Origin: Branchiostoma floridae
Lineage: Eukaryota; Chordata; Leptocardii; Amphioxiformes; Branchiostomatidae
Reading direction: 5' to 3'
NCBI RefSeq assembly: GCF_000003815.2
Contig: NC_049983.1
Location: 22,593,552-22,657,551 of the forward strand
DNA length: 64,000 bases
The notes under the pieces are model-generated. The model was not told the origin of the DNA and did no database searches. It saw only the letters and a list, made by a program, of their open reading frames with translations. The position numbers were made by a program, and so were the translations under genes. Positions 22,847 to 59,000 of the stretch are shown here, in pieces. How positions within the stretch are numbered: the first letter of the stretch is position 1; each line of letters opens with the position of its first letter.

Positions 22847-25800
22847 ATGAGGCTGACCGGCTGCTGGCTCCTGGTGATATGTAGTGTTCTCGGCAGCGCC
22901 ACGGCGACACAGCTCGAACCCTCCAGCCCCAAGTGTCTCTTAGAACCCTGGGACACGTGCGTGCCGGACGATATCAAGGTTCGTAACAAGTTTTACCGCA
23001 ACACTACTACTTGTATATGTAGTGTTTGCAATGCCGGAACTGGCTGTGCTTCACTCGGTTCCGGGTACGGGCCTTTCCCTGCTGCCCAGTGGGTCGTCCT
23101 TCGAGGCACCCCGGTCGGAAACCTGTCCTCACAAACCCTGCTGGGACCCATCCATCCTTCTTCATTGACGGTCCTTGTTCTTATAGATGCAGGCATAAGT
23201 GCGATCGAAAACGGCATATTCACAAGATTTCCACACTTGCGGTCAGTACATCTAGACCATAACACTCTGTCGCAGCTGAAACGTGCTAGCTTCTCCGGTT
23301 GGAACACTTCAGACGACTCTATTGCCGCCAAGTTGTCATTTTCCTACAACCGTATTGCTCAACTAGAACTTGGGTGTTTCGAAGAAATCTCGTATCTCTC
23401 AATGTTAGATTTGTCCCACAACTTGCTGTCGGAAGTAGCGAGCGGATGGTTCCGTGGTCTCCCATTCCTACACACACTGATTCTGACTCACAACAAGATT
23501 GAAATCATTTCCGAAAACGCCTTGAATTCCCTGAACGATCTAAGAGCCCTGAACTTAAGCCACAACCCTCTGACGTGTCTGAGCGAGAGAACACTTTCGG
23601 AGCTGTCACTCCAAATCTTCAGCGTAAGGGGAGAGCATCCCGTTTCCTGGGAGCAAGATAAGAAAATGAACTGGGGTCTTACCGTTGACAAAACTGATTT
23701 TCCTCAGAAAGAACAGAAAGTTCTCCTTCGTATTGACAACCTGGGGTTTTGCCTCACATACGTGACAGGGACGAAAGACTTCCAGCTCAGGTGGGTTCTT
23801 GTGAACCATCTTGCGTTCAAACATGTCAAGAGACAAGACCGTGAGTGTTCTTCTGCTACGTTTGGCCCCTTAAACATCCGGCCTCCGTTCGTTGTCGTAA
23901 CTGCTTTGGAGAAACCGGAAAAGAATAGGCGCTCAGCTTCCCGTAACCTGTGTTCAGAAGCTTGGACAATACGTGACGGAATGACTTTAGCTCTGAAAGG
24001 AGGCGCGGTTTTGAAGCTTGTCGGTATACACAAGACAGAAATGTCGAAAAACATGGGAAACGACGGCATTGCTCTGGTATCTAGCTACGAGGGAAGTCCT
24101 GGTTTTATGATCGGATCTGAAAGGGCACAAACTGAGTCCGGTGAGACAAACATATCCTGCTTTGTATTTTTCCATGGATCGGTAGCCGTTTTGTCACCGA
24201 CGCGTTTCCAAGGCGCTGAGGGTGGGGCCTACTCGGAATGCCCCGTTTCAAAGTTCTGTCAAGACAACCTATACACAAAGTCCGACACAACAAGTACAGA
24301 GTCTCACAGTCAATCCAATTCTGCTACTGGATACGTAGAGAAAAGCACAACCATGGTAGCAAAAGATCCCAACAAAACGCTTATTCCCCCTGTCCTATCC
24401 AGTGCCACATCACCACCTGAAAAGGGAACGGCTTCTCGTTACTTCCTATCACTGATCGGTCTGCCCGGACTTCTATTACTAGTTGCGGCAGTCGTCTGCA
24501 AGTTCAGAAGTAGCAAGAATGCTGCTCAAAATATACCCGACTCATCAAATAGCGGGACGCACCTTGTCCAGTCAAGTGTAAGTCGTGTAACAAGCCTTAG
24601 TACCACCGACCCGACATACGAAGACCCGGACCGAGACACGGCGTATGAAGACCCGGACCGAGACCCGTCGTACGAAGACCCAGACCGAGACACGGCGCAC
24701 GAAGATCCGGACCGAGACACGACATACGAAGATGCGGACCGAGACCCGGCGTACGAAGACCCGGACCGAGACCCGGCGTACGAAGACCCGGACAGAGACC
24801 CGGCGTACGAAAACCCGGACCGAGGCACGGCGTATGAAGACCCGGACCGAGACACGGCGCACGAAGACCAGGACCGAGACACGGCGTACGAAGACCCGGA
24901 CCGAGACACGACGTACGAAAACCAGGACCGAGACACGACGTACGAAGACCCGGACCGAGACACGGCGTATGAATACCCGGGCCGAGACCTGCACAGCTGT
25001 CCAAGTGGCAACGACGCAGAAGGAACGCTCGTCCGCCGCCGCCGTTCAACGGGTTCCACCCACAGTTACGAGGAGGTAAATGACCAAGACGTCTACGATC
25101 CGTCTGCAGACCACAGCTACTCAGAAATCAAGGACCAAGAGAGCAATGACCCTTCCACGCATAACGCCAGAGGCAGGAACAACGAACTGAACAGATCTTC
25201 TCAAAATGCGCAACTTACCGTCGCCCTGGTTCACCGTAGCCCTCCTTCCATCGATGTATCGCAGCTCATTGGCAATCCAATGTACGCAAAATCAAACCCA
25301 GCTTTGGCGCAACCCTCGGATGTCTCTGATCATACCGACCAAAGCCCCAACTGTGGCTCCTCCCCCATCTCCCCTGACACGTATTGTGATGTAGACGACG
25401 AGGACGTTTATGACCCGACTAGAACCCACAGCTACTCAGAAATCAAGGACGAAGAGAGCAATGACCCTTCCACGCATCGCCCAAGAGCCGGGAACAACGA
25501 ACTGAACAGTTCTGCTCAAAATGAGCAACTTGCCGTCGCCTTGGTTCACCGTAGCCACCTGTCCATCGATGTAACACAGCTTATTGGTAATCCAATGTAC
25601 ACAAAATCAAACCCAGCTTTGGCGCAACCCTTGGGTGGATCTGATCAGACCGAACAAAACTCTACTCGTATCTCCACTAACACGTACTGCGATATAGACG
25701 AAGAGGATCCTACTAAAACCCACAGCTACTCAGAAATTAAGGACGAAGAGAGCAATGACCCTGCCATGCAAGACCCAAAAGTCGGGAACAACGAACTGAA

Positions 25801-26692
25801 TAGCTCTGCTCAAAAGGAGCAACTTGCCGCCGCACTGGTACAAGGTAGCCATACGTCCATCGATGTAACGCAGCTTATTGGTAATCCAATGTATGCAAAA
25901 TCAACCCAAAATTTGGCTCAATCTTCCGACCATTCCACGCACCGCCCAAGAGCCGAGAACAACGAACTGAATAGCTCTGCTCTCGCCCTGATTTACCGTA
26001 TTCATCAGATTGATGTAACGCAGCTTACTAGCAACTCAATGGATGCAAAATCGAACCCAGCTTTAGAGCAACCCTCGGATAGTACAGAGCTGCCCGAGCA
26101 AAGCTCCCATCGGCGCTCTTCTACCGTCTCCACTAACACGTACTTTGAAATAAAGGATGAGGAAGTGTATGATCCGTCTACAGAACACAGCTACTCCGAC
26201 GAGGAGAGCAATGACGCAAGAGCCGGGAACAACGAACTGAACAGCGCTGCTCAAATTGTACCAGTAGCCACAGCTCCGGTGCAAGGTAGCCCTCCGTCCA
26301 TCGATGTAACACAGCTTATTAGTAATCCAATGTATAGAAAGTCGATCCAAGCTTTGGCTCAATCTTCGGATAGTTCTGACACAAGTGAACAAAGCCCCGC
26401 CTGTGTTTCTTCTATCCTCTCCGCTACCACGCACTGCGAGGTAAAGGGTGAGAAAGCCTACAATCCGTCTACAGAACACAGCTACTCAGAAGTTAAGGAG
26501 GAAGAAAGCAATGACTCAAAAACAGGGAACAACGAACTGAACATCGCTGCTCAAATTGTACCAGTAGCCACAGCTCCTGTGCAAGGTAGCCCTCCGTCCA
26601 TCGATGTCACGCAGCTTATTAGCAATCCCATGTATAGAAAATCGATCCAAGCTTTAGCTCAATCTTCGGATGGTACTGACAAAAGCGAATAA
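22847..26692 (+). CDS. Single-exon LRR transmembrane receptor with YxxP-repeat and NPMY-repeat cytoplasmic tail
   Basis: The 1281-residue uninterrupted frame starts at an ATG (context GCGACCATGA) followed by a clean signal peptide (residues 1-20, cleavage likely after GSATA). A Cys-rich N-cap (C30, C38, C56, C58, C61, C67) precedes about five leucine-rich repeats (roughly 106-250: SLTVLVLIDAGI, LRSVHLDHNTL, LSMLDLSHNLL, LHTLILTHNKI, LRALNLSHNPL). A 280-residue unassigned ectodomain follows, then one TM helix at about 532-554 (GLPGLLLLVAAVV) with a basic stop. The 727-residue tail has fourteen 9-residue repeats (589-714, YEDPDRD) and about six 100-residue units containing SYSE(I/V), (V)YDPS, NNELN, SIDVTQLI and NPMY(A/T/R)K. 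YxxP suits Crk-type SH2 domains and NPxY suits PTB domains, so a phosphotyrosine scaffold receptor is inferred. The family is not recognised. The frame ends at an apparent CAA-to-TAA change inside the last repeat. Confidence 0.9.
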   Translation: MRLTGCWLLVICSVLGSATATQLEPSSPKCLLEPWDTCVPDDIKVRNKFYRNTTTCICSVCNAGTGCASLGSGYGPFPAAQWVVLRGTPVGNLSSQTLLGPIHPSSLTVLVLIDAGISAIENGIFTRFPHLRSVHLDHNTLSQLKRASFSGWNTSDDSIAAKLSFSYNRIAQLELGCFEEISYLSMLDLSHNLLSEVASGWFRGLPFLHTLILTHNKIEIISENALNSLNDLRALNLSHNPLTCLSERTLSELSLQIFSVRGEHPVSWEQDKKMNWGLTVDKTDFPQKEQKVLLRIDNLGFCLTYVTGTKDFQLRWVLVNHLAFKHVKRQDRECSSATFGPLNIRPPFVVVTALEKPEKNRRSASRNLCSEAWTIRDGMTLALKGGAVLKLVGIHKTEMSKNMGNDGIALVSSYEGSPGFMIGSERAQTESGETNISCFVFFHGSVAVLSPTRFQGAEGGAYSECPVSKFCQDNLYTKSDTTSTESHSQSNSATGYVEKSTTMVAKDPNKTLIPPVLSSATSPPEKGTASRYFLSLIGLPGLLLLVAAVVCKFRSSKNAAQNIPDSSNSGTHLVQSSVSRVTSLSTTDPTYEDPDRDTAYEDPDRDPSYEDPDRDTAHEDPDRDTTYEDADRDPAYEDPDRDPAYEDPDRDPAYENPDRGTAYEDPDRDTAHEDQDRDTAYEDPDRDTTYENQDRDTTYEDPDRDTAYEYPGRDLHSCPSGNDAEGTLVRRRRSTGSTHSYEEVNDQDVYDPSADHSYSEIKDQESNDPSTHNARGRNNELNRSSQNAQLTVALVHRSPPSIDVSQLIGNPMYAKSNPALAQPSDVSDHTDQSPNCGSSPISPDTYCDVDDEDVYDPTRTHSYSEIKDEESNDPSTHRPRAGNNELNSSAQNEQLAVALVHRSHLSIDVTQLIGNPMYTKSNPALAQPLGGSDQTEQNSTRISTNTYCDIDEEDPTKTHSYSEIKDEESNDPAMQDPKVGNNELNSSAQKEQLAAALVQGSHTSIDVTQLIGNPMYAKSTQNLAQSSDHSTHRPRAENNELNSSALALIYRIHQIDVTQLTSNSMDAKSNPALEQPSDSTELPEQSSHRRSSTVSTNTYFEIKDEEVYDPSTEHSYSDEESNDARAGNNELNSAAQIVPVATAPVQGSPPSIDVTQLISNPMYRKSIQALAQSSDSSDTSEQSPACVSSILSATTHCEVKGEKAYNPSTEHSYSEVKEEESNDSKTGNNELNIAAQIVPVATAPVQGSPPSIDVTQLISNPMYRKSIQALAQSSDGTDKSE
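24611..24988 (+). repeat. 27-bp coding minisatellite: fourteen YEDPDRD(T/P)(A/T) units
   Basis: Exactly 14 units of 27 bp (378 bp) code for (P/T)(A/T/S)YEDPDRD. Twelve units keep the tyrosine (units 4 and 10 have His). Ten have proline at Y+3, the YxxP pattern. Departures include YEDA, HEDQ and YENQ. The lack of any indel keeps the frame. The array lies about 35 residues inside the membrane. Confidence 0.95.
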
Positions 26693-27135
26693 AGCCCCTC
26701 CCGTGTTTCTTCTATCCTCTCCACTAATAACACGTACTGCGAGGTAAAGGACGAGAACGTTTATGACCCGACTAGACCCGATACTTACTCCGAGATTATA
26801 AAATTAAGGACGGAGAAGTGAGCGGCATCTCTACGAAAGACGACAGGGAACTAGACAACACGTCCCAAAAACGTTTCCCGAATGTCGCCGACAGACCCCA
26901 CGGCAGCCGTCAGTTCATCAATGTCTCGGATATCACCAGAAATCCGATGTATGAAACGTCCTTGGTTCAACCAACCGATTGTTCTGGTCCAAACGAACGA
27001 AGCATCCGTCGCCACTCTCCCGCACCTTCCACACAAAGCTACTGCGAAATAAAGGACGAGAAGGTCGGTGGCCTTTCGGCGCAAACTGTGAGAGCGGACG
27101 AGAACAGAGAACAGAGTGGGCAGTACTTGGAATGA
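26693..27135 (+). pseudogene. Decayed or separated C-terminal continuation of the LRR receptor tail
   Basis: Beyond the TAA at 26690-26692 the same frame continues with SPSRVSSILST, TYCEVKDENVYDP and TYSEI, clearly another tail repeat. The stop codon replaces the CAA found in the equivalent position of the preceding unit (SEQSP). After TYSEI an apparent 8-bp insertion (ATAAAATT-like, near 26795-26805) shifts the frame. The coding then continues in the shifted frame to 27135 with ITRNPMYETS, SYCEIKDEK and a final SGQYLE. So at least one further NPMY and one SYCEI motif have been lost from the protein, unless splicing or an alternative allele restores them. Confidence 0.7.
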
Positions 27136-28795
27136 GACAATGTCGTGCGAGACGAACAAGCAGGAGATCCAGCAAGACGACGACGTTGTGCTACCAATTA
27201 GTACGCTGCACATCAGAAGTTGAACTGTGACTAACTTAAAACAAGATATAACGTTATATATCCAAGATTTAACAAAACCGGGAGATAATGTACTCAGCTG
27301 CAGACCTACACTTTACAGCACTCCTGAACTAGAAAAAGAGAGATACTAAGTATTAACGTTATAGTTTAAAATTTCGTGCTATAACGTTAACGTTATATTT
27401 GTTAAATGCGGTAGTTGTTGTCAAGAATATCTTGATCAAAGAGTACTAATATGAGCTACTGTAAATACAAAATGTATAAGCAAATATCTGCACATGAGAT
27501 TACATACCTTGTAACGTTAGAAAGGAGTAACACACACAGAAGATTGAAAGTCAGCACCTTAGAGGGATTACAAGTGCAGGAAAGACAGGTGAGCCGAGGA
27601 CTACATCACGAAGTCGCAACAAATCCTGAGGTCAATCTAGGATTTTGTTTCTGATGCAGGACAGCAGGAGCTTAACGGAATGGCCGCCGTCGATTGATCC
27701 GTCGCTGACATAAACAAGCGAAGGAAAAGAATTTCTAGCCATCTTTAGAAGTATTTCCTCTTTTGTATACTGTCTTAAAACTGTTGGCAAACAAATAGAG
27801 ACACTAGAGGTAGACAAGCTTCACATACTGATACACAAAGTCCTTGTATGATAATATGTATGGATTTTGAATCCGATTGAAAAACTGATTTTTTGTCAGA
27901 GCTTCAGTGGTTGTAACTAGTAGTGACGTACATGTGAATAAACAGTTGTTAGATCGATGTACTGGTGGCCCCGTGTTTTTTTTGTCGTGTGGTAGTCCCA
28001 ATCACATAACGATTTTGCCAGCTTATAGCAGTTAATGTTAAATATTAATGATACTGGCATAGACAAAAACGAGGATTTGTATTTTTGACTGCCTAACCCA
28101 GAAGCATGGGTTCTTTAATCCATAGTCCACGAACATGGGACCACTTGAATCACTAGGGTCACAAGGCCTAGGGCGAACTAGTATTATCCCTTATTACTGG
28201 TCTAGTCTCCAAGCAAAGGTTAGGAACGTTAACGCTTTTCTGACAGTCACTCAAAACAAGTGTCTGGTCTGGATGTCTATCTATATCTCTACTAAAACGC
28301 ATATCTTTCCACTGACTATGTCTTCATCACCATTTAAAAGTAAACTACTTGTATAACACATTCGTAGTGCAGTGTTTGGAGACGGGATCCAATCCATGGA
28401 CATGGCACCAAGATTTGACACTAACTTTTGTCCTTTAATAGGTCCACTAGTTTTCTACCGTTGGCAAGTAATGTTCATTCGACCCACTCCTCAGTTTAAA
28501 AGCCTAGGAAATTCTGGAGAAAACAAAGGAATGAAACACCAAAAACATGAAAAACACACATTTCATCTTCATGACAGTTTGATGCGCCACGCCCATCTTC
28601 GCTAACCACCTGTCGTGATGACGTCACAATGATAACCTTTGACACACATTACCCATCAAGCCCCGCGCGTAATAACACTACGATTCGAAATTCTATGGCA
28701 ACGGGAGAGGACTTTCTCTCCCAGGAATCCTCACTTTTACTGCAATTATGTGGATTTTATGGTGACTTTGGTGAATTAAGACGCTAGGGGACAAC
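27136..28795. other. Intergenic region between LRR receptor and ankyrin gene
   Basis: It contains a fragment of the tandem repeat seen at 20.7-22.0 kb (about 27450-27665), and an AATAAA at 27937-27942 that could be the polyadenylation signal of the LRR gene. The last 200 bp before 28796 are probably promoter and 5'UTR of the ankyrin gene. No clear core promoter motif was recognised. Confidence 0.45.
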
Positions 28796-29046
28796 ATGAA
28801 GAAGCTCACGAGGAAGGTGTCCAAGGTTCTGGGCCGCTCCAGCACGACTTCGATCGGCAGCGGCCCGAGCGTCGGTGGGGAGGGCGCGCACGGGTCGCGT
28901 CTGTCGCTGACCGGCTCGCTGTCCGCCTACGATGTGCGCGAGAAGGACATGGGAAAGGTGCACAAGGCGGCCTGGACGGGCGACATGAAGAAACTGCAGC
29001 AAGCCCTGAAGAAGGGAGACATCAACGCCCTGGACAAGGAAAACAG
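28796..29046 (+). CDS. ANKRD26-like exon 1: start codon, N-terminal helix, first ankyrin unit
   Basis: The ATG is preceded by GGGGACAAC and opens MKKLTRKVSKVLGRSSTTSI, then SLSAYDVREKDMGKVHKAAW and KKLQQALKKGDINALDKENR. It is GC-rich, unlike its surroundings, as expected near a promoter. The donor is AACAG|GTAGTC, phase 2. Confidence 0.9.
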
Positions 29047-32000
29047 GTAGTCTTTCTTCCCAAACAATGTTGACATAATTTAAAACATATGACATCAGCT
29101 GATCGATCAAAATTTTACACCAGGTGATCACGTACGCGCATCAGGTTTTGCTTTAGAATTTTCCCTACGAACCTGAAACTATGTTGAGTCTAAAACCTTT
29201 AAAACAGTCGTCCAAAAGCCTTGTTTTTAATTGCTATAAACATTCCTTCCTACAACCCCCTGTTGGCAGTTTAATCGTGATATCCTAACGCTTCGCAGCA
29301 CGACTTTGGAATGCCAGGAATTCAGTTCCTATCCCACATGTTGACATAAACGTCACTAGACGTCCAAAGTTCACGTTTATTTTTAGCACATCCTGCAATG
29401 AAAGATTTGTGTAAACATCCTGTACACAGTCATAACTGTGAAATGAAAATAGTGAAAGCTGCTCACAAAATATCAGTAGGAATTGTGTGCATTTACATAT
29501 GAAAGACTTTGGTTTTCAACCCATAGATAATTTGATTTAATTGCACCAAGGAGTTCCAATTTGATTGTTGCACAATAGGAAGCCTTACAATAAGATGCAT
29601 AGCTCAATCTATTGTGAGCCAATATACTTAAGATATAGCCTTCATGTATAAGACATTTTTGTAGAAGTATACATTACACTTTGCTGTCTATATTAATCCC
29701 TTCTTTGTCTCTTTACTCGTAATATGGATGAATGGGAGAAGAAACATAGGCTTTTCACACAGTGTCTGCATTACTATTATTACAAGAAAAATTCAAGATG
29801 AGAAGACAAATAGGGCATGGGATTTCATCAAATCATGCTTTTGGTGTTCAGGGTTCACCCTGTAGAGGGTATGGGAATGCTGTTACATAGCATATTTGCA
29901 TTTGAACAAAAATCCAAGAAAAAATGGCTAAGATTAAAAGTAAAATGACCTGTTACAGAACAAAATTTCTTAGTAAATTCTAATTCTCAGAAATGAATGC
30001 TATAGTATATATTACTAGTGACAGTATATTGACACCTTATCAATATCATTTACTTCCACAAACCCCCAGGGTGACTTTACCAGCCCTCCACCTGCTTGTT
30101 TTGTAACCTGATACACCTGCCTGTAGTACAGGTGCACATACACACCTTTTCATTCTCCCACCTTCAAGTTGCCATGGTTCATGGGATATGTAAAGAGTTT
30201 GTACAAAAATGGGCATTTTTTCCTCCCAAAGCCTTTTAGTGACACTTCGTCCAAAGAAATCCCAAATTCCAGGCTTTCAGAAAAAGATACAAAATTAAAA
30301 GCTTCACCTTGACCTTTAACCTGCAGTACCTGTAGATCCATGTGGAACGGAGAGTATTTGTTTGTAGAGCCACTTAAGTAGATGTAACCGTAGCATTCGT
30401 AAGTAACAATAGTGCAGAGGACTTGAATGGCTTCTCAAACCCAGATTTCAATGGATCTTCACCTTGTTGTACAGTGTGCCTTTTACATTGTAGATACCTG
30501 ACTATTCCATTAGCTTCTACCAGATCAGCATTTTTACTTCCATTGCAGTGAAAAAACAGTATTGGTAAATATGAAAGTAGATGAATCTGATTCAAGCATT
30601 CAAGCATAAGTTTTTTGATATCATTATCAGCCATTTTCCATGAACATGTATGGATGTCAGAATTGAAAGAAATTTAATTTCAATCAAATGAATTTTTAAA
30701 CAGCTTGTATTTTTGTATGAAATGTTCAACATGACCATACTGTTAAAATTTTTTTTTAGTGATCATAATGCAGTTTTTGTTGTCTATATATTGAGTAGCA
30801 TGTCTTTGACATATTCATTGACATTGACCTAACCTTGTCATACATTTGTCTCTGTTACAATCATATGCATTATACAAATTGTAATTAAATTTGTTTTGAT
30901 TTGAATTTGATGTTTATTTTCAGGACTCCCCTGCATCTAGCGTGTGCACGAGGCAACGTGGAAACTGTGCAATTCCTGTGTGAGAACAACGCCAAGCTGA
31001 ACGTGTGTGATGATGACATGAGGTCACCCCTCATGAAGGTATGATGTAGGCTCAACACTTATTTGTAGGAATATGTGCATGTGTACAGAGCTGCGGCGTT
31101 GTACAAATAAATCATTCTGATTCTGATACTCTGGAATTTGGGGTGCAGAGCTCCAATTATGGGTGTATAAAAGTGTGTATGCACCCAGTACAAATAATAT
31201 GCATTTCTCTATCTGTCAACTTTGATTGGTTGATTTTGGAGAGAACAAATCCATCAAACAATACAGTTTTTACAGCCCTCTGGTACTTAGTATATGGGCA
31301 CATCTCTCAACTCGTCAATAATTAATTCAGTCCCCCTGCATGAACCCATTGTGTTTCAGACAGGTGTGTAGCGTAAACAAAGCAATCTGTACCTATGTCT
31401 CATTCATGATTCTTCTACTGTTTACAAAATAATATATTATGATTGTTATATCTTGATCTATCAATTTCATTTTTGTTTCTACCAACAAAAATGGGATATC
31501 CATTTAATACAACGTAAACTTGTTATGGCGCAGTTGCTTTGAAATCTTATGATAGATGGCCGGATCTGTGAGGAATACTAGACAAGTATATTTTGCAGTG
31601 ATTGATAACCAGTACAACATGGGTGTGAGGGCAGTGAGAATACCTGGTTATCCAATCGACATTTAGCATATCACAGTCCACAGATGTGACACACATCATG
31701 GTAACCAAAAGGTCAACAGAGGTTGCTGCCGCTGAATGTATATGAATGTCAAGAGATGGTTTTTCCTTCACAAAATGATTTTACAGATTTGTACTGTAGC
31801 TCAACCAATCACAGTCTGTGTTGTTGGGTAGAGAAATGCACTGTAACTGAAGTGTAAGGCCTAGGAAAAAAGAAAGAAAATAGCATAAACTTTGCTAGGT
31901 ACATTGACCCTATACAACTGTACATATAGCACCTGTCCTTGCAGATCTACAAATGTAGCAATGTGGGTTAATCCGTTGTGCAATTGACTGGCTTCTACTG

Positions 32001-35000
32001 TATGTTAGGAAGACCTTATAGAGGCTAGGTATGACCATTGAAAGACGAGCTTCTCTACAATCTAAACTGGATGAGGAAACTGATTCCATTTCTCAGATAC
32101 CCCAGGTGGTGCAGTCAGTTTGAAGAGTTATGTTAGTAACTTACCCTTACTAAAGACTATATGCCAACACACCATTTTTGCCAGATTTTTCTGTATAACC
32201 TGTTATACTATCAGGAAGGCCTGGTGGAGGCTACTAGTAGGTATGACCTTTTCAACAAATTGAATGTAAACTGGATGAAGAAACTGATTCCATGTCTCCA
32301 ATACCCCAGGCCGTGCAGAGCCAGTTTGACGAGTGCACCGCCATCCTGCTTGAACACGAGGCCGACACAAACCTGGTGGATAAAGACGGGAACACCGCGC
32401 TGCACCTGTCTGCTCTCATTCCCAGCCTCCCCGCTGCAGAGGCACTGCTCAACCACGACGCAAGGATAGATACTCAGAACAAGGTAATGTTATACTTACT
32501 AAGTACTTCTTTACACAACACCTACATTGTAGTAACTACTAGTCAAGTAAGTCAAGACGTCATGATGTAGGTATCGTATAAAGAAGGAGTTTCTACAGCT
32601 GCAAAAGAAGATACAGTCTGACTCCCTGAGTTTGCTTTGGTTGAGTTTATTGTGATACTCTTCAGTCTCTTTTTGTTAATCTTCCATTACATATAATGAT
32701 ACGATTTTAAGACTTTATATCCGTTCACAAAAATAAAGCGCTTACCAACAAGCTTTCGATCAGTCCCAAGACCTAAGTCGCACTTCCGGAACGGAAGTGT
32801 GACATCAGTAAAGGGTCAAAGGTGCTTGACAGTCGGTATCGGTAAAGGGTCAAAGGTGCTTGACAGTCGGTATCGGCCCCCGTCTCGGTTGAGGGAAGGT
32901 TGATGGGCTCTGATGTAAATGGCCTCCATTAAATATTGTATACAAATCTAAAAACACAGAATATCCAAGAAATGAAATAGCAAATTTAAAAAGTGCATAC
33001 AAAATACATCATCAAATCTAAAAGCATTTGACTATAATGATATCCATTCATCTGTGTGTGCACATGGGATACAGTCATAACATCAGTTGGTAGAGCATTC
33101 CAGATCAAATCCTTGTTGACAGTGTGTATGGAATTGAATAATTGGTTGTACATGTATGTGTGTAGATATTGTAAAAGAAGAAAAAGAAAAAAAAAATGCA
33201 CAAGTCATACATGTAGATTTTTAAAATCATCTTTTTGGGCCGTAGCCACAGATAACGCTTATTCCTTCTTCCTCCCCCCTCCCCCCAGTCTGGCAGCACC
33301 CCCCTCCATTTGGCCACCTACCAGGGTTATGACGACTTCTGTGAATTTCTGCTCAAGGAAGGGACAAATATCGATGCTCAGGATAACAAGCAAAGGTAGG
33401 TCAATCCATACAGTGCATGCTCCACATATGTACTAGTACATGTGTCTATGTTATAGGTTTTCAGGAGCCATTGAGGTAGCTATAATGTCTTTTTTTCTAG
33501 AGGTTAGTATTCCATCTCCTGGACCAAAGTTTGTTGGTTTGAATCCCGGCCTAGCCATCCTTGGTTGTATGTACATGTTTTGTGTACTATACTATGTACC
33601 TTTGAATTAATGGTACAGTCAAGCCAATAGATAGCAACCCCCCTGACGCTGGCCGGTATGCTTGGTCATGTCGGTCTGGTGAAACTTCAGTATAATAGTC
33701 TATGTGTGCAATGTATGTACACGTGAATGATAAATGGTACACCCTGTAGGACGCCCCTGATGCTGGCTGGTATGCTGGGTCATGTCGGTCTGGTGAAGCT
33801 GTTGTGTGATAGTGTAGTAATGAATGATAACCCCTGTAGGACCCCCCTGATGTGTGTGATAGTGTAGTAATGAATGATAACCCTCCCTAGAACCCCCCTG
33901 ATGCTGGCCGGTATGCTGGGTCATTTTGGTCTGGTGAAGCTGTTGTGTGATAGTGTAGTAATGAATGATAACCCCTGTAGGACCCCCCTGATGTGTGTGA
34001 TAGTGTAGTAATGAATGATAACCCCTGTAGGACTCCCCTGATGTGTGTGATAGTGTAATAATGAATGATAACCCCTGTAGGACTCCCCTGATGCTGGCCG
34101 GTATGCTGGGTCATTTTGGCCTGGTGAAGCTGTTGTGTGATAGTGTAGTAATGAATGATAACCCCTGTAGGACCCCCCTGATGTGTGTGATAGTGTAGTA
34201 ATGAATAATAACCCCTGTAGGACCCCCCTGATGTGTGTGATAGTGTAGTAATGAATAATAACCCCTGTAGGACCCCCCTGATGCTGGCCGGTATGCTGGG
34301 TCATGTCGGCCTGGTGAAGCTGTTGTGTGATAGTGTAGTAATGAATAATAACCCCTGTAGGACCCCCCTGATGTGTGTGATAGTGTAGTAATGAATGATA
34401 ACCCCTGTAGGACTCCCCTGATGTGTGTGATAGTGTAATAATGAATGATAACCCCTGTAGGACTCCCCTGATGCTGGCCGGTATGCTGGGTCATGTCGGC
34501 CTGGTGAAGCTGTTGCTGGAGAACAATGCTGACACCAACATCCGGGACAACCGTGGCTGGACAGCGGAGGACTGCGCCAGCACTGCAGGACAGCACGCGT
34601 GAGTAGTAGCGCAGTCACAGTTCTCATGCAACCTGTGTTATCACCAAGTACAGTAGGGGCATCTTCTCTGGATAGTTTCAAAGAACGCTTGCAGATAGAT
34701 GTGCAAAAGTTAGGTGTGACAGGTCATTCAGTGTAATATAGTTATAACCAGCTGCTGGTGTGTTACGCTGACGGGCGGTTATACTGGCTATATAGATACA
34801 GATACAGATACAGGTATATAGGGTGTTTGCCTTGCATTTGGGAGGTCGTAAGTTCAATCCCTGACCAAGTCATACCAAAGACTTTAAAATGGTATAGTTT
34901 TACACTGCTTTCTCTGCTAAGCACTCAACATGGTATGGTAGTTGAACACACAGACCTCTACCAGTGGACTAGTCCCCTGCTTCAGTGATTGCACCTTTCT

Positions 35001-44000: not shown

Positions 44001-47000
44001 TGGTGCCAAGGCTGCCGGATTTGGAGGACTCCGTGTCGGAATGGGACTCCAGCGCCCCTCCCACCCCCACACAACAGAATGGTAGCACCCATGACATGCT
44101 GGATAGGTCTGGCTCCTCTAACAGGACTCCGAGGTCAGAGGAAAAGAGGGAGTCTGGCTCGACAACACCGCCGGGCTATCAAAAGGAGCAGCGTGGGGGT
44201 AAACAAGATGGAACACCTTGCTTCACACTGCCGACTTCTTCAGTACTTTTTAAAACACTCACTGTGTACTCACTGTTTTAATAAAATTCTACATTATCCT
44301 AAACTTTAAGCATGTATGTGTTACAGGTAACCTTGTAATCCCTATTATAGCTGTGGTGTCTCTTTTGTCCCCTCTGCAGATACATGTAGAGAGAGACATG
44401 AGAAAACAAAAGAGACTTGGCAGCTATTGTAGAGATGTACATTTTGTATAACATGCCATTTCCTTTTTTGGGTGTATAAGGTGGAGGACAATGCATGTAT
44501 CACAAGTGACTAATAATTGAATGCACTTTTGTTTCTTAATCATGTACTAAATCTGATGAAGGTGTGTAACTAAATTCTCAAAATACACTCTCTCTATAAC
44601 TGACTCTCTGTTTGTGTACAGGTGGATCTTCCCATGTTGTCATGGCTGTTTACTCTCCGAGGTGTTAGAAGTAAGATCTGTACGTGTTGTGAGAAAACTT
44701 TGCTGTTGTTTGCTTTGACATTACCTGTTTCCCCCCACCCAGATGGGTCACCAGCCTCCCCCAGGGACAAGCTGTCCCCCCGAGCCCGGGGCTCCCCACC
44801 CCTCACCCCCACCCCCCGGGATAGGCAGGGGTCGGACTCGCAGTGGGACACCACGCCCCCAGCCACCCCCACCCCCAGGCAGAATGCTAAGTACAGAAAG
44901 GATAGGAACTCTCTTACATTACTTAGAGAAATATACGTCATTCAATTGGCCCCAGAAAAGTCGCCTGAAATTCAGACCATCTACAATGTTGTAATGTAAT
45001 TTATGTCATACCTGGGCTGTGATAACGTTTGATACGGGTGTTCCAGACTGGGTGATAATTTTCTGTATCACATATAGGCATCTTAGCTGTATCACACATG
45101 CTTCCATCGTTTAAATAGTACAAACTCCATGACCACTGTTGCTATTAATAAAATTACAGGTGCAAGCAAACCTATAGTTCTTTCGTTCAAATTTTTCTTG
45201 AATTGATGCTCTTAAAGAAGAAAGTTGTTGGTGCAGGTTGAGTGTCAAATTTTATCATTTTTATGAGTAGTTTGTTTTCTAAATTTTCCGACCTCAGTAT
45301 GACAACTTCTTCAACGGATCTGACCTGTGGTCGGGCTGGTACCTTGGGTGATACGGAATACATCGTGTTGTATTCTATATGTATCAAATATTCAAACTTT
45401 AAACCCAACCAAGCCGCTGGTACTGTGTAAATGTCAAAATTAATAACTGTTGGTTTAACAGGACAGTGACGACAACTGGGACACCACACCCCCAGCCACG
45501 CCCACACCTCGCCATGGCAACCTGCAGGAGGAGGTAACCATGGAAACCAGTAACCATCTCCTCCTGTCCCTCACTTCTTTCCTTCACAAAATCCACAATC
45601 AGAGATCTGAACTCTCACCTTGACCTGGTGCCATGACTGACTGTCAACGGTGTGCTATCTATCTAAAGATGAAGTGCTTCTCAAATCTCTTTCTCTGAAT
45701 TTTTCCTCTCTTTCAGTGTGATTCCTATTCCCGTATGCAGATGACACGTAGAATGACAAGAATCATCAATAAGCCATTGCTAACAAATAAGATTGATCAT
45801 GCTATATTAGGATGTGCATCCGTGCAACCTAGTATGACAGGATGATGATGGTGTTGATATTAGGATGTGAATTTTAGAAAGTATTATGCAAAATGCTGTC
45901 TTACGAATGTTTTGTGTGGTATTGTTTTGTACAGGATGACTATGAAGACGTGATACCAACAGGGAAAAGCAAGTCCAGCCCCCAGGCTAAGGCTAAGGCT
46001 CCTGCGACCCCTGACCTTCCAGAGGATGAGGAGGACAGGAAAAGAGGTGAGGTACTCTTTCATGAAGGCAGGGCATGAGGAAGCTTAGAAGTGTCACCAT
46101 TATCTTTCTCATGGGATAATGTAAAGGTTGGATGGCTCATGGCACATGTGTATGTCCCACAAAAACATTACATGATGGTACATGTACCTGCCCAATTAAT
46201 TACCAGCATTAGTATAAGATAATTATTTTGTTTTAGAAAGCAAGAAAATGAAGTTTGTTCCTGTGATCTGTCCCAGACTAATGCCATATTAATTTCAGCT
46301 GTAGCGGGACCACATTGCACTACTACATTTTGTACATGTATCTATCAAAAGCTCATCATGTTTTGTCTTCAATCTGAGATGACCACATGACCTAGTTTAC
46401 ATTTTTTTTTACAAAAAGTAACAATTGCTTAAGCCTTAAGTTAAGGTTCAAGACCTTACTTTATTTGCATTTGTTTCCCAGTACTGGCAGAGCTCGGCCT
46501 GTCAGATGTGTCCGAGGTCTCCAGTGTCAACTTTGACACCGAGAACGAAACAGACCAGGATGCTCCATCACCTTTGACCCCAAGGTATGTAGTTTGCATC
46601 AAAGGAACAATGCTATCAGAAGACTGGAAAGATGCTAGCTTGGTTTTGATGTGAATGGCGGTTATACCGACTATATACAGCGGCGCTCCCGAAATACGCG
46701 TCAACTTGCGCGAAACGTCCTCCGAAATTTCGCAGTGCGTTACGCATTCTTTCGCAGCGCGTTCCGCGAAATTTCGCAAGACGTTGCGCAGTCTTTCGCA
46801 GTGCGTTCTGCAAAATTTCGCAAGGCATTCTGCGAAGTTACGCAGCGAGTTTCGCGAAAAGCAAGAGCCTAACGCAAAGTCCTACTGCGTAATTCTGCGA
46901 AACTTCCGTAGAAACACGCCGCATTCATATGCAGACCGCCCGCGAGGTGGGCGGAGAAATATCACGGTTTGTTTACCTTTCCTTTGAAGCCGGCGCGCCA

Positions 47001-50000: not shown

Positions 50001-53000
50001 TAACGTTATGTCTGTTATGACATTAGCTGTCATTTATGGGCTAACATCCAAGTCAAGAATAATTACTAGTACATTGCGTTGGAAGTTGGAACATTCATAA
50101 TGCTTAACGTTCCATAACTCACAACAGCGAATGAGCTTAGAATGAGTTCAAAACTATTGCAAGAATTATTACAACATGCAACAGTTGGGTTGGAACCGTC
50201 GACTTGTAGGTCTCGGAACGCCGGCTGACCTAAACTTTCTTCAGCAACATCATTGCGTCTCTAGCATTTCGTTGTCTTCGCCATCGTATGTCTGAGTCAA
50301 AACTGACAGACATTTGCGTGGTTATCTTATCTTTTATACAGTGAGAATTGTCTGAACACGAAGCCAGCGTCAGCGCCACCATCAAAAATTTCCTTCCTAA
50401 ATCGGCTTGGGTGACTCACAACGCGAGTCACCAGCAACTTCGCTGTCTGAATGCCTCTAGCTGCCGACAAAGATTAGACCTTCAATTACTGCTGATTACA
50501 AGTTCATAGTCATTTCTAAGAATCAAATCGTCACAACAATAAAACAAGGAGCCTTGCAAAATCCTTTGTTCGCAAGGCTTGGCTTGTCTGCATGTACCAT
50601 TATGCCGAAGTGGTCCCGTGGAAAGAAAACTTTTCTCTTCAAGGCTCATTTCTTTGACCAAAGAACAACTTTGTGTAGTGTCTAATTGACAGAAATCCAT
50701 TTAATTAAAATTAATTGTTCCTATATCATAATCACTATATGATATACTATACATCAGCATACACGTTTCCATATTTTACCATATTACTTTAAAAGTGGAG
50801 TCGTCCACTGACCCCTTGTGACCTTGTTTTCCTGCTGCTGCTGCGACGGCCATCTTGAAGAAATTACGCGAAACACGATTTTCACATCAACAACAACAAT
50901 GATTGTTTTTTGTCGCGGAATACTAAAATTGGGCCTGCTAACATACATTTCAAGAACTTAAGATAATCAGATACAAGACTAGATTGTTTGCTTGTGAAAT
51001 CTGCCGTAGTTTTCCAGTCCGTCTACATAGAAATGACGATGTAACGTTAGAGTAGAGCCGATTTCGTGTCGGTTTATCCTGGGTTTACGCAAGTACGCTA
51101 TCTACGGGTCATTGACCCTTAATGTCTTGCGTTGTTCGATGTCATTTCGGTCCTCAATCAAAGAACGTGTAACAGTTTTACGTCGACTTTTCTTAACCCT
51201 TCTGTTTGTAATCTATTCGGCTACTTATTTGATGTTGTTCATGATTTGGGACCGCACCGCCACGCGGTCAGACGTTCTCCGAGTTGCGCTCCCGCCACGC
51301 TTTTCCAGCCCCCATATTATCTACAATTTATCAATGAATACGTGATAATAAGGACGATCAATTGTCATGTTGATTGCATTGTGTAATCACTGCTCATTAA
51401 CGACCAAAATTTGCGTAAGATTTCTAATACGTAGAAGGCTTTCGCATGGGTGTTTCGATTACGCAGGGGGATATTTCGCAGTGCGTTACGCAAACTTTCG
51501 CAGTGCGTTCTGCGAAATTTCGCAGTGCGTTACGCAAAATTACGGACTGCGTTCTGCGAAATTTCGGAGTGAGTTCTGCGAAATTTCGGAGTGAGTTCTG
51601 CAAAATTTCGCAACACGTTTCGCGCAAACTGACGTATATTTCGGGAGCGCCGCTGTAGATACAGATACATTTGTGGTACAGTCAAACCTGTACTGGTGAC
51701 TACGTCAGCATCCGGTCATTGTGCTCACTTTTTGGTGGCCTCTTTGTTTTTTGGCCATCGAACCCAAGCATCCCATCTGTAGTGGGTACGGGTCTAGTCT
51801 CACCCTTGACTGGTCACTATGGACAGGTTTGGCTGTACTTGTGTCTTTCATTGAACTGAATGAAGAAAACTTTCCACATGGAATTGACAAGTTGTTGAAT
51901 GGCTCTGAAGATCTGTCCTCTTCAAATTTTGTTTGTTTATTGTTCTTCTATCAACATGCGCTCACTTAGAGATTGTCTAACAAATTTAAACCTGTTTCTT
52001 TTTCTTGTTTCTTGTTATTCACAGGAATAGACCCTCCCCAAGGTCAGCTCCCAAGGTCAACCAGACCGTGTCTTTACCTGAGATGGGAAGAGCACAACAG
52101 GTGAGACCAACTTCTTAAGAAACTTTTAAGGAATGTACTGAGGGTGATGCAAAGATAATGCATACATGTATATGTATGGTGATTTTAGAAAGTCAGAAAA
52201 CAATTTGCTGATTCTCTGCACTGAGTAGTCATGTTAAAATGTAACAAAATGTAATTGTTACCACTAATTTATTTGTGCCTCCCTCTTGCTCAGAATGCTG
52301 AAAAGAAGGAGACACCAAGAAGAAGTGAGAGCCAAGATGAGTCAGGTTAGTGTCGTCACTGCTCTTTTGGAGATAATTAGATAACTAGAGTGCACAAAAC
52401 CAGCTCATAAAAAGATAAAACCCTACTGTTCTGCTATAATGATCATGAACAATTTGGGACTAAGAGCTGTCTCTATTCTTGAGTGATTTATTTAAACCCT
52501 CTAGTTTCATGGGCAGATACACTGTGATTGACCCAAGGTCTGTTTTGAAATCTTTTGATGCTGAGGTAAATCTCTGTTTTTATCCAGTACTGTTGTAGAG
52601 ATTATTGTATTAATTTTGAATATTGTTTACCTGGATGTCTAACCTTTATACAATGGAAATGTAGTCATCCCTAAGTCTTGATTTAGCCTGACTGAGAGGA
52701 TTACATAATGTTTTCTACCACTTATTTCCAGATTCTGACTGGGACTCAGACGAGGTGCTTCCCCCATCAGACTACAGCGCAGGGAAGGCAGCGGTGAAGT
52801 CTCCCTCCGCGCCTGCTGTCATGCAGAAGAGACCTCGTAAGTCAGGGTGAAGTGTGTGTGTGTGTGTGTGTGTGTTAAATATAACAGGATAGGGGGTAGT
52901 CTTATCTTAGCAATCATGAGGCAACAGCACATCCAGGCCATGCAAGGAGAGACCTACAATGTAGTAAGTCAAGGTGATTAGAGAGGGGATTGCAGTATAG

Positions 53001-56000
53001 CAACCACAATCGTCATATAGCAATCACACTATAGAGCTCAGGTTATGGCTTTTGCAGAGAAAACTTTCCAGACCCTACAGACAGGATTCACTTTAGCACC
53101 GTCATAAAATTGGAAGTACATGTTGTACGTTGTCCCTAACACATCCACTGGTAATGATAGATGCCCAATCCTTTACAGTATAATAAACTTAAGATAATCT
53201 TGATTAAATCAAACTAAATGTACTGGTGTCCAAGAGACTCTCAGTAAGAGTCATTTAACAGGTAGGTCAGTGTCTTTCATTCCTAACTCTTACGGTAACC
53301 ACCTCCTGAACAACTTATAATAACATTTTGCACAACTTTGATTTATTTACATTTTATTTACACCTTTAATATGTTAACTTTCAGTTCCTTTATATTGCAC
53401 AACTTTATTTTGTTTTTTGTTTTGTTTTGTGTCTCGTGTTCTAATCCCTAACAAAGCCTCGGCCCAAGAGTCCGAACAAGACACGTCCACATTCGGTGAC
53501 GATGAGGTCATCAGACCTGACGAGGAAGACTTCACTCAGTCTGTGTCCAAAACTCCGTCCCTCCAGGAGTCGGGACATAGAGGTACGTTGCTCCCCAGGC
53601 TCCCATCCCCCTAAAGAAGTTAGATACATTTGTACTCACCAACAAGAAAGGAATAGCTAAAAACCAGTAAACCAATTTGAAACTTAATGCCTGAGACAAT
53701 TCATGGCAAATAAAAATGTGAAGAATAAACTGGCATTTTCAGGTTTTGGAAATGAAGAGAAATAAAATGCAAGAAGTTAAAAAGAAAATCTTCAATCTCT
53801 GTAATTATGTAACCAGGTTGTTTTGTTTGACTGTACACCAAACCATTTCATCTCTATTTCTTGAACTATCAAGGCCTTACTTATGAATGAAACCTGTCAT
53901 GACTTCTGATCATTTAAGGTTAACAGTGCATCTGTGGAAACTACCAGACGACAAACCTGTTGCAGGCTGCTACAAAAAATATATATAATACATTTTTCAT
54001 GTCACATCACATCAAACAGCCAATGGCTTTTTACCCCAACCCATGTCCAGTGCTTCAAAGAATAGCTGCTTTGAAATTCTTTCCGGCATTACTTCACTGT
54101 GTTGTAAAATTTGTTTTGTATTCTTTTCTTTTCTTTGGGTGTTGACTAATGTTTTAAATGGTGTGCATTTGGTTTTGTCATTTTGTTTTGTTTTGTTTGT
54201 TATTGACTAAAGCTTTAGGTGGTGTGCATTTGTTTTGTGTTATTTTGTTTTGGTGTTTACTAAAGCTAGTACATGGTGTGCATTTGTTTTGTTTTGTTTT
54301 GGTGTTTACTAATGCTAGTAAGTGGTGTGCATGTTGCATGGTGGTTACAGTCGGTGACGAGGATTCAGAAACCTCGTCTGACTTTGGTGATGACGAAGTA
54401 CTCCCTCCCAAGGATGACCATTTTTACACCTCACCATACAGTAGTGGGAGGCCGCGTACGTATTGTACCGTGTTGTGCTTGGTAGTAGATAGTAATGTTT
54501 AGGCGTTACTAGTGTTGTAGTGTCTTCTTGTCGTTTGCTGCTGCCTTCCTTTCCCTGAATGCTGTGTCAAACTCTCTGCTGCTTTTAGAAGATAAAAAGT
54601 TTCAAGCTGCAGCAGGCCATTCTTTGCAGAATGTCCTAATATAGGATTTAAAAATACATACTGATAGAGCTCACAGATCTGCTAATGCTATGGCCAAAAG
54701 GTTGCTAGAAAGCATTTGCTCTCAGCCACAAGGGCTATCTACTGCACAAAAATCATGACCAAAGCGTATATGCTGTACAGCGAACAAGAAGTTCTGCTGT
54801 ACAGCATATCCTCTAACAAAGTTGCTAGGGGGCCAAAAATCATTTTCACAGGTCTCTTCAAAATCTACCAGGACAGTCCATCCAGGCATTCTGAAATCAT
54901 CATGTCACACACACAGACACACTACCCCAAACATAACTCTATTGGCAAAGGTAATCACAATGGTTGTTCCCTTCCCCAGCGCTGTACCGTGGTGTCTCCC
55001 AGACGATAGAGGAAGAAGATGAGGACCAGGCTTCTCAGCTCGGCAGCGCCCGATCCCGCCAGTCCGAGGTCACTGAGGAAGAGAGCGAATCCGAGTGGGA
55101 GCGGGAGAAGAAGCGAGAACGACAGGAGCGTCAGAAACGGGAGCAGGAAGAGCGAGAGAGAGGGGAGGAGGAGAGACGGAGACAACAGGAGAAGGAGAGA
55201 CAGGAACAGGAGGAACGAGAGACAAGGGAAAGGGAAGAAACGGAGAGAAGGGAAAGAGAAGAACGGGAGAGGAGAGAACAAGAGGAAAAAGAGCGCCAGG
55301 CTGAGAAGGTTAGCCCGTTTTAGTACTTTTTGATAGTGAATGAATGAACTTTATAGCGTGACAATTGTACACAGTACGATGTATGACAGAAACTTAACAT
55401 CCTAATTACTATTTATTTTGATAACAATAAGGGCTAGCATAAGTTATGATGTGGTGTTTCAATAGAATGTCAATATTTTTCTAATATTTGTAATAATTGA
55501 AAGCCTAGCAGTCATGATCATGTTGTACAAATGTAGCTACTGCTGCAGTACCTCTCACTGCCATCAGGGGGCTCTTCAATCTCTTGCCATCACCAACTGG
55601 TCAGCCAAAAGGGTTCAGGAAAGTTTCAGTTGAAAGTTAAAGCCTGTTGTTACCTGTATCATGGCTTCATAATTTTTGTCACACTTTTGCGTGATACTGA
55701 TAGAGACGTTCTCTGAAGAAAATTGATATTTCAAATGTAAATTTTCAGTGTATTTTGTATCCCATTAACTGTCCACTTTTACTAATGTTAGTTTGTGTTT
55801 TTGGTGTGTTACATTCCTTTTTACAGCACTCTGGGTTGTTAGGCATTTGTTTGTAGCCTTGACCATAAGGATTGACCTAGCACCTGTAATTGCATGACAA
55901 CAAGGCTACCAATAAAGTAAATGTTGACAAAATCCAAGAATATAAACAGTAGCGGTCATCAAACTCCAATAAATCAAACAGAGCTACATTTTTGTATACA

Positions 56001-59000
56001 GAGGCATTCTCCAGACTTAAATCCTACCTCTAAAAGTTAGTGACAAACTACTGTAACAGCAAATCTTGATCTTACTCTAGGAAACCATTTTTTGTCAGGT
56101 CGATTTGTTATGGCTTAACTTCATCTTAACGTTTACTTAGTGATATTTGAAGTTGATAACTTTCTCAGCCGTTAACGGTCGTGTTTGCACAAGTCAATCT
56201 AGTATAAATTCTGTGACAGACTCCACAAAGCATTTTATACAGTCCCCTCGGTATGTTATTGACTTTAAAAAGAGTCCCTCACACCAGAGAGCACTTTCTC
56301 CCCAACCACACTATACCGATTTGTGTACAGACTGCAAAATCGCCTCTTTCATATGCTAATGACGCTACTCTGAAACCCGAGTCCTGTGTGTTGTTACCGG
56401 GTAACGTGACACTTCAGAGTCTGGCATCAGGATGGGGGGGTTATTCTGGATTAGTGTAACTTATCCCCAGTTGTTAGCTTAAGTGACAGGCAACTGTGCA
56501 CTACACAGTTATGCTGGGCGTCATGTTTTGAGCAGTTTTCATCTGTTACACTCTGCTAGCTCTGTGACAAGTCTTTGTTAAGTTAACTCCCCATCAGTGT
56601 AGGGCTTTAGGGTAAGTTGGTTATCGATCCTTTATTGAGTTTGTCTGGCTTTTTTTCTGGTTTATGGATCTAGTATTTAGACTGTGTTCTACACAATGAA
56701 GTACGTCCGCATAGTACAGCTTCAAAACATTGGAACAAGCGTTGCCGTCGGCCCGGACCGTAGCTCATTATTTACGTAGTAATAGAGAAAATGCCTCGAC
56801 TCCTACATTGCAGGGACTTCAGTAAATGCTAAAACATACATCAAGTGGTATTGATTCCATTGCACCTGGGCAAATTTACCTCTAAATCTTTTGTACAACA
56901 GTATTTAAAGTGTGTACTACAGTCATGTATTTGTATTCTTGCCCTGGAAAAGCCCTGTGAGATTTTTATAAGATGCTAAATATAAGATTGGTATAAACGT
57001 TGCAGAATCAAAACATTTGTGAGCCTTTCTTTAACAGGGCTCGAAATGCGTTTTTCTGCATACCTGCACTGGTGCACGTAACATTGAAAATTACCTTCAA
57101 CAGACAAATTTTACCTGCACAACTATGAGTTTAGGAAGTGTGGATCATACTAAAAACTGTTCAGAAACCATTGCTATTTTTTCTTTTATATTTTAGAGAT
57201 GGTAACAGTCAATGCAGCTAATAACAATCCTTATACACCTACATATGACATTTATGTATAAAACCCAGTACATGGACCAGTACAGGTTAGGTGCAGGTTG
57301 ACACCAGAAATACCTGCACAACTCCAATTTTACCTGCACTAACCTGCATATGCAGGTGGTATTTCGAGCACTGTTGAAGCTACATGTACATTGTACTTGG
57401 TGCATTTCGTATTGTGGGCGGTAGCTATAGTGCTACTTCTGGTGCTACATTTGTATATCGTGATAGTCACATGGTTTTCAAGTTCTCAATAATTCAGACT
57501 CGTAAACTAGGATGGCAGATGCGTTTGATAAGTCCTAATTCAAATGCGTTGTTCATCGAAGCTAGCATTGTATATTTGTGTCACATATGTAAACTGTACG
57601 TGTATGTCTTCTTCTTGGTTGGTCACCCATGGTATAGTCTGGTCAAGGACAAGTGGACTTGTTTGTCCTTCATCTGGTGTCATTCCATAAATATTGACAG
57701 AATGCCTCAAAAAGTAGGTTAGGTGGTCACCAGGGCCAAAGTTCAAATGTCAGTAGCTTGCTTGTCCTGAAGGAACTGTTATCAGGACCTACAAAAGTCT
57801 CACACGTAGCCCAGACACTGCACCTCCTCTGTCTACGTGTTACAAATGTATTCCTACCAGAAAGTTTCCAGAGTATGAACTAGAACCAGGACCCACAAAA
57901 GTTGGACAAGCTTAAGGGGACATTGACATCAGTTAACTCTTCCAAATTTTCATTATAAATTTTGACGTATCAAGTAATGGTGACTCATTGTCACCAGCCC
58001 TACTTTTTTGCAGTCAATTTGTTTGGGAGCCTGTGTCAGAATTTAGAGAGAAAAACTGTAACAGTTATACTTAGCTAAATATGTTAACTTTCAACTTTTT
58101 CTGTTTTACAGAAACGCAAGGAGGAGGAAGAAGCCAGACGAAAGGAGAAACAAAGAAAGGAAGAAGAGGAAAGAAGGAAGGAAGAAGAGAGACAGCATAG
58201 GGAAGAGAAGAGAAGAAAGGAAGAAGAAAAACAGCACAGGGAGGAGGAGAAGAGAAGAAAGGACCTAGAAAGACAGGAGGAAGAAAGACGTCAGAAAGAA
58301 GAAGAGCTAAGACAGGCCAGAGAAAGGAAAGAAAGAGAAGAACAAAAGAGACGAGAAGAAGAGGAGAGAAAATCACAGGAAAGAAGAAGGAGGGAACAAG
58401 AAGAGAAGGAAAGATTCAGGAAAGAAGAAGAGAGAAGACTAGAGGAGGAAAGGGAGCAGCAGGAGAGGAAGAGAAAAGAGGAAGAACGGAAGAGAAGAGA
58501 CGAGCTAGCCCGGCAGCGTGAGGAAGAAGAACTGAGACTTGAACAAGAACAACGTGAAAAGGAGAGAAGACGCAGAGAAGAAGAAAAGGAAAGGATACGG
58601 CTAGGAGAAGAAAGGATCAGGAAGGAGAAGGCTGACGCCAAAAGGAAAGAAGAAGAACGCCGAGCTCAGCAAAGACGAGAGGAGGAAGAAAGACTTGCTG
58701 AGGAAGAGAGGAAGGAACAAGAAAGGAGGAGGGAGAGAGAGAAGGAGGAAGAGCGGAGACAAGAGGAGAAAAGGCGACAGGAAGAAGCCAGGAGGGCTGA
58801 GGAGAGGAGGATAGCAGAGGAGAAGACTCAGAAACACCTCGAGAAGCTGAGGCAGTTAGCTGAGAAACAAGCAGAGCCAGTGTAAGTAATTTTAGTTCAT
58901 GAATGCCTTTTGTTGGATATAACTCTTAGACATTTCAAGATCCATGTCCTAAAGTTTCAATGTACGCTGTGTTGTTTAACTCTTAAGGCGTGCTACATGT

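Follow-up and report, generated by a model that had tools for sequence, protein, structure and literature searches.

The closest described counterpart of the protein considered here is BbLcLRR of Branchiostoma belcheri, a leucine-rich repeat (LRR) transmembrane receptor of 699 amino acids (aa) with GenBank accession MW390887 that was recovered from BbLck precipitates and whose mRNA is high in gut (PMC8211107). BbLcLRR is phosphorylated by Lck at Y539, Y655 and Y690, which lie in the sequences DDYATV, HDYSEV and HDYDDP, associates with SHIP1 and inhibits T-cell receptor-induced NF-kB activation in Jurkat cells; an Lck inhibitor lowered tyrosine phosphorylation in immune-stimulated lancelet gut cells (PMC8211107). 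A second lancelet LRR receptor, FrLRR of B. belcheri, is tied to the phosphotyrosine adaptor Grb2 and to phagocytosis (PMC10199209). In other animals, NPxY is paired with an immunoreceptor tyrosine-based activation motif (ITAM) in MEGF10 and Draper and with YxxL in CED-1 (PMC8092387), and the adaptor p130Cas carries 15 YxxP motifs, which after phosphorylation serve as binding sites for Crk-family SH2 domains (PMC12071665). Here, a stretch of 64,000 nucleotides from Branchiostoma floridae (GCF_000003815.2, contig NC_049983.1, positions 22,593,552 to 22,657,551 of the forward strand; hereafter the window, in whose own numbering all positions are given) was analyzed with respect to an open reading frame (ORF), 22847..26692 (+), for an LRR transmembrane protein with a repetitive tyrosine tail. 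With a probability of about 0.6, we read this protein as a clustering-driven, single-pass LRR docking receptor that is phosphorylated by Src-family kinases and binds SH2 and PTB proteins.

The ORF is uninterrupted over 1281 aa, a run of stop-free codons with a chance of about 1e-34 at the base composition of the window. Its frame is open upstream as far as 22709, and an A stands at position -3 of the ATG. Behind a signal-like N-terminus come the leucine-rich repeats and an orphan region, and a single transmembrane segment then leads into an acidic tail of 727 residues. The probable signal peptide (residues 1 to ~21, 22847..22909) is a hydrophobic N-terminus recognized by reading the translation. 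The repeats (residues ~93-250, 23123..23596) matched Pfam LRR_8 (E=3.1e-21) and LRR_4 (E=1.1e-8), and their best match in the PDB was 7wrq (E=7.1e-29, strongest over residues 93-247), the acid labile subunit of the IGF-binding complex. The membrane-proximal extracellular region that follows (residues ~258-531, 23618..24439) has no Pfam family, and a PDB sequence search with it (23618-24440) was empty up to E=10. Hydropathy placed the transmembrane segment at residues ~532-554 (24440..24508), followed by a basic stretch; the Kyte-Doolittle mean of 2.6 over 19 residues from 533 is the maximum of the protein. Sixteen cysteines precede the membrane segment and six lie behind it. ORF, LRR_8 match and hydropathy thus bear out the proposal of an earlier note on this DNA that a single frame joins an LRR ectodomain to a 727-residue tail. 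A Pfam scan of the whole protein returned, apart from the LRR families, one tail match under its cut-off (PF21085 CusS, E 0.049), which was regarded as due to chance, and it gave no kinase, TIR or SH3 domain. We consider the product a probable cell-surface receptor with an inner tail of tyrosine motifs, which probably recruits signalling proteins.

An LRR ectodomain and a single transmembrane segment are common to this receptor and BbLcLRR, and the end of the BbLcLRR ectodomain, between Y451 (predicted outside) and Y539 (tail), is comparable to residue 531 here. Trk neurotrophin receptors likewise have an LRR-containing ectodomain, in their case together with Ig domains, an NPxY site for the Shc PTB domain and a kinase domain of their own; the likeness lies in LRR-containing ectodomain and NPxY, and the difference in the kinase domain, which Pfam did not give here. 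The differences from BbLcLRR concern both sides of the membrane. Its tail, of the 699 aa in total, measures roughly 160-250 residues versus 727 here. SMART assigned LRRNT, LRRCT and WSC domains to BbLcLRR (PMC8211107), whereas Pfam gave none of the three in the present receptor, in which the LRR repeat families alone passed the cut-offs. The string NPXY is absent from the main text on BbLcLRR (PMC8211107); by contrast, the present tail has five NPMY motifs. At the level of single sites, HSYSEV in the tail agrees with HDYSEV of BbLcLRR at 5/6 positions, which 5/500 shuffled tails do as well. FrLRR differs in having a folate-receptor domain and a predicted GPI (glycosylphosphatidylinositol) anchor, without a cytoplasmic tail (PMC10199209).

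The tail (residues 555-1281) contains 138 acidic and 55 basic residues, 32 Tyr, one Phe and no Trp, and a PDB search with it was without match up to E=10. Judged from its sequence, docking of phosphotyrosine-binding proteins would be its most natural role. Enrichment of motifs was assessed against 2000 shuffles of residues 559-1281. NPMY occurs five times, against a shuffle mean of 0.00, and this count was reached in 0/2000 shuffles; the spacings are 105, 98, 147 and 100 residues, so that the five NPMY motifs in units of about 100 residues, as described in the earlier note, stand, and a sixth, degenerate unit carrying NSMD can be added. SYSE was found four times (shuffle mean 0.04) and VYDP three times (mean 0.01). 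Together with two TYC[DE][VI] sites, these are the further sites called "many" in that note: they are present, yet in these small numbers within the receptor frame.

Six units, U1 to U6, occupy 25064-26689 of the forward strand, each with up to four tyrosine sites of the forms Y-x-[DE]-[IV], VYDP, SYSE[IV] and NPMY. U1 (25064..25378) has YEEV, VYDP, SYSEI and NPMY, and U2 (25379..25681) has TYCDV, VYDP, SYSEI and NPMY; U3 (25682..25930) has TYCDI, SYSEI and NPMY, its VYDP lacking the VY. U4 (25931..26137) is partial and degenerate, with NSMD in place of NPMY, and falls in the 147-residue gap. U5 (26138..26428) has TYFEI, VYDP, SYSD and NPMY, and U6 (26429..26689) has THCEV, AYNP, SYSEV and NPMY and is cut by the stop at 26690. 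Tyrosine is kept at the first site in 4/5 units, at VYDP in 4/4 (one as AYNP), at SYSE in 5/5 (one as SYSD) and at NPMY in 5/6. Comparison of non-synonymous (dN) and synonymous (dS) divergence gave dN<dS in all 15 unit pairs, with dN/dS between 0.21 and 0.69, the lowest value belonging to U5/U6, the most similar pair. In bootstraps of three pairs, dN<dS was recovered in 300/300 replicates for U5/U6, 299/300 for U2/U3 and 290/300 for U1/U2. Four of the five pairs examined showed an excess of differences at third codon positions with P<0.05 (uncorrected), U1/U2 being at P=0.24. The ~100-residue NPMY units are under protein-level constraint, and they are the core of the tail.

Two segments, NNELN and the approach to NPMY, IDV.QL, are invariant in 6/6 units, more so than the tyrosines, which indicates that the target of selection includes both. 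The NPMY sites themselves read L-I-[GS]-N-P-M-Y in 5/5 cases; Shc-type PTB domains prefer a hydrophobic residue five positions before the Tyr, and the Ile of these sites fits. Invariance of the two segments would also suit an endocytic or sorting tail, in which PTB or clathrin adaptors (Dab, ARH, CED-6) dock on unphosphorylated NPMY, the protein acts as a scavenger or uptake receptor and the other tyrosines are incidental; CED-6-type PTB proteins may indeed bind unphosphorylated NPxY (PMC8092387). An NPxY-only role, however, has no need of the SYSE and VYDP tyrosines, which are kept in 5/5 and 4/4 units, and we hold this explanation to be possible, if unlikely.

Pairing of NPxY with other tyrosine motifs in a single-pass protein brings the docking receptor proposed here close to CED-1, Draper and MEGF10, in which NPxY serves the PTB adaptors CED-6/GULP and is accompanied by a second tyrosine motif (PMC8092387). 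Both elements are present in the tail, as five NPMY and eight Yxx[ILV] motifs, the latter mildly enriched. These proteins differ in having EMI/EGF ectodomains, whereas Pfam found neither domain in the ectodomain of the present receptor, solely LRR families; one NPxY each is reported for them, and the portion of the source available mentions no repeat units or YxxP array (PMC8092387). With BbLcLRR (PMC8211107) and the NPxY pairing of MEGF10, Draper and CED-1 (PMC8092387) at hand, the statement of the earlier note that no named family has this architecture was too strong. The receptor looks like an unusually elaborate form of a known idea, and the better-studied amphioxus receptor appears to have motifs of a similar type. 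Described amphioxus hybrids include TIR, NACHT, TNFR-caspase and LRR-caspase proteins, the accessible part of that account containing no receptor like the present one (PMC2575513). Among the papers listed in literature searches, in which subscription journals are barely covered, none describes, judged by title and opening of the abstract, an LRR receptor in which both YxxP and NPxY are repeated.

Between the membrane segment and the NPMY units lies a second repeat of a different nature. Fourteen 27-bp units (24608..24985, +; 13.8 copies, score 562 by Tandem Repeats Finder) encode fourteen 9-residue units at residues 588-713, which hold all ten YxxP motifs of the tail. At least ten YxxP appeared in 1/2000 shuffles, a rarity due mainly to the tandem repeat itself. 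The earlier note had seen here ten YxxP in a perfect 9-residue array; count and period were confirmed, whereas the motif is not perfect, since 4/14 units are no longer YxxP (Tyr is kept in 12/14, YxxP in 10/14). Relative to the consensus, the array shows 20 non-synonymous and seven synonymous codon differences, six of the 27 sites per unit being synonymous, so its codon differences are roughly neutral. In simulations of selection-free substitution from the consensus, which leave out gene conversion between units, a mean of 10.0 of 14 units remained YxxP after 29 changes and 10.9 after 22, and at least ten YxxP units were left in 64% and 83% of runs, respectively. The loss of YxxP is thus close to what selection-free substitution would produce, and there is no detectable selection for the motif. 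By contrast, the array has no stop codon, whereas 69% (29 changes) and 60% (22 changes) of the simulated runs would gain one, making a reading-frame constraint plausible.

Clustered YxxP is common to p130Cas, with 15, and the receptor tail, with ten in an array of 14 units. Cas, however, works in the cytoplasm as an adaptor that contains SH3 and further domains, whereas here the motif YEDP belongs to a minisatellite with an exact 9-residue period, C-terminal to a transmembrane segment. Of the label "p130Cas-like" the YxxP cluster stands; the comparison is otherwise the least supported part of the earlier description, the array being a minisatellite without detectable selection for YxxP and Pfam having found no SH3 or Cas domain. 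The array has the look of an expanded minisatellite, and it may raise the valency of the tail. Nck was considered as the obvious reader of YEDP and rejected, its SH2 consensus, pYDxV (PMC2661883), being unlike YEDP; Nck is nevertheless among the proteins reported to bind the Cas substrate domain (PMC12071665).

Several observations weigh against the docking receptor. Sites of the form N-x-S/T number six outside and six in the tail, so that topology gets no support from them. The array is also open in one other forward frame and in three reverse frames, as is expected of a 27-bp repeat, although these frames do not stay open across the rest of the gene. Agreement of the tail with HDYDDP and DDYATV of BbLcLRR reaches 3/6 positions each, which is not notable. 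The Yxx[ILV] class is enriched only mildly (eight versus a mean of 4.13; 89/2000 shuffles reach eight), and the strict immunoreceptor tyrosine-based inhibition motif (ITIM), [SIVL]xYxx[ILV], occurs 0 times in the tail. Among viral and prokaryote contigs, where none was expected, no relative was confirmed; 20 prokaryote stretches fitted a search pattern, none of them being confirmed. Finally, a stop codon and a frame change lie behind U6. As to other receptor classes, a strict ITIM receptor is ruled out by the count just given, and a Toll-like receptor and a receptor tyrosine kinase by the lack of a TIR and a kinase domain, respectively, in the Pfam scan. An ITAM consists of two YxxL/I motifs at a spacing of 6 to 12 residues; in the tail, paired Yxx[IV] sites, several of them with Val, have Tyr-Tyr distances of 17, 17 and 14, that is, 13, 13 and 10 residues between motifs, and are at best ITAM-like.

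Downstream of the ORF, the repeat runs on, a feature missed in the earlier note. A same-frame continuation with TYCEV, VYDP and TYSEI covers 26693..26797 (+), and an other-frame continuation with RNPMY and SYCEI covers 26806..27135 (+), up to a stop at 27135; for the latter, tblastn with the array-free tail gave E=7e-9 and 2e-5. A candidate polyadenylation signal, AATAAA, lies at 27937..27942 (+), as a pattern only, with a second AATAAA at 27048. Because the repeat extends past the stop and the frame change, the receptor copy looks shortened, and its ancestor probably had a tail with at least one more unit. Over 22 codons, the first post-stop piece differs from U2 at 4, 1 and 9 first, second and third codon positions, from U6 at 6, 5 and 10 and from U1 at 7, 5 and 12; with differences peaking at third positions, the comparison suggests that this piece was coding until recently. 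The stop and frame change may represent an allele, an assembly error or a fixed truncation, or be hidden by splicing.

If the copy were a truncated, decaying paralogue, its motifs would be relics, with the earliest visible damage at the 26690 stop and at the change of frame near 26800. Continuation of the repeat past the stop in two frames would fit, as would the change of NPMY to NSMD in one unit and of a TYC site to THC in another, and the loss of YxxP at about the selection-free rate. Set against this are the 1281 open codons and the constraint seen between units, even in U5/U6 (dN/dS 0.21); damage confined to the C-terminal end is equally compatible with an allele, an assembly error or a protein that is shortened yet works. 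Decay is, in our judgement, quite improbable. Still less credence, to the point of being very unlikely, is given to introns that take out the stop and the frame change and place the true end of the protein elsewhere. Splice sites were scored with generic weights, acceptors from ~26804 to 26990. Strong donor-like sites exist at 26448 (8.4) and 26441 (6.8), with 5.7 as the threshold of the top 5% of GT sites in the window, but the best AG between ~26804 and 26990 scored 2.8, the top 5% starting at 6.7, and the stretch to be removed is still repeat-like, with differences largest at third codon positions.

Under the docking-receptor reading, binding of the LRR ectodomain to a ligand of microbial, cell-surface or matrix origin would cluster the receptor, whereupon a cytoplasmic Src-family kinase would phosphorylate the acidic, probably disordered tail. 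The NPMY units, with their Ile five residues before the Tyr, would recruit PTB proteins (Shc-, Dab- or CED-6-like), and the Y-x-[ED]-[IV] and YEDP sites SH2 proteins (Src-family, Crk-type, or SHIP/SHP-type phosphatases). The resulting multivalent dock would drive uptake or tune immune signalling, and its output could be either inhibitory, through SHIP/SHP, or activating or phagocytic, through Crk, Shc and CED-6. We infer in this scheme topology, disorder, phosphorylation, partners and biological role of the receptor. Amplification by the receptor "on its own", as once suggested, is unlikely because no kinase domain was found by Pfam. A further proposal, speculative and rather unlikely, is that of a self-carried phosphotyrosine scaffold in which the constrained ~100-residue PTB/SH2 units would set a base signal, the YEDP minisatellite would act as a gain control whose length varies between individuals, and the C-terminal stop would be a further length variant.

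No paralogue of the receptor was found in the window: tblastn searches with the ectodomain and the array-free tail matched solely the post-stop repeat continuation. No relative was found in phage records with the ectodomain as query. Pfam scans of other frames covered a subset of the 104 stop-to-stop frames of the window: ten other ORFs gave no family (E up to 0.01), nor did eight frames, including the second post-stop piece and one frame shared with the set of ten (E up to 0.1). Several features on the forward strand resemble coding sequence. The last ~35 residues of an exon-like frame at 28775-29050 matched designed ankyrin-repeat proteins (PDB, whole-sequence E=9e-9), with no single stretch passing alone and no Pfam family; this frame may represent one of the first coding exons of a gene lying downstream in the same orientation. 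At 33747-34515, ankyrin-like phrases (TPLMLAGMLGHVGLVKLL, by eye) accompany tandem repeats of 50, 141 and 190 bp with stops between copies, which may be exon-plus-intron duplications of an ankyrin gene. Repeats of 177 bp (9.8 copies) at 60519-62294, of which the copies read encode a peptide like AEAELAEAKQVRRERMLSAGSGSFSLSEDDFDGHLSRGR, look like a tandemly duplicated exon. Frames at 54955-55323 and 58088-58885 are coiled-coil-like, highly charged and rich in Glu, Arg and Lys, and Pfam gave no family for them. Apart from these coding-like features, similar-looking 22/44-bp tandem repeats of the type ATTTCGCA...GCGTTCCGCA occur at 46723-46860 and 51473-51612, ~4.6 kb apart.

The NPMY units, which are constrained, and the YxxP array, which drifts, lead to opposite and testable predictions. 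If the tail is phosphorylated, unit number and the presence or absence of the stop would offer a natural series relating valency to signal strength, and basal chordates would be shown to equip LRR receptors with multivalent phosphotyrosine scaffolds of their own in place of separate adaptors such as Cas or LAT.

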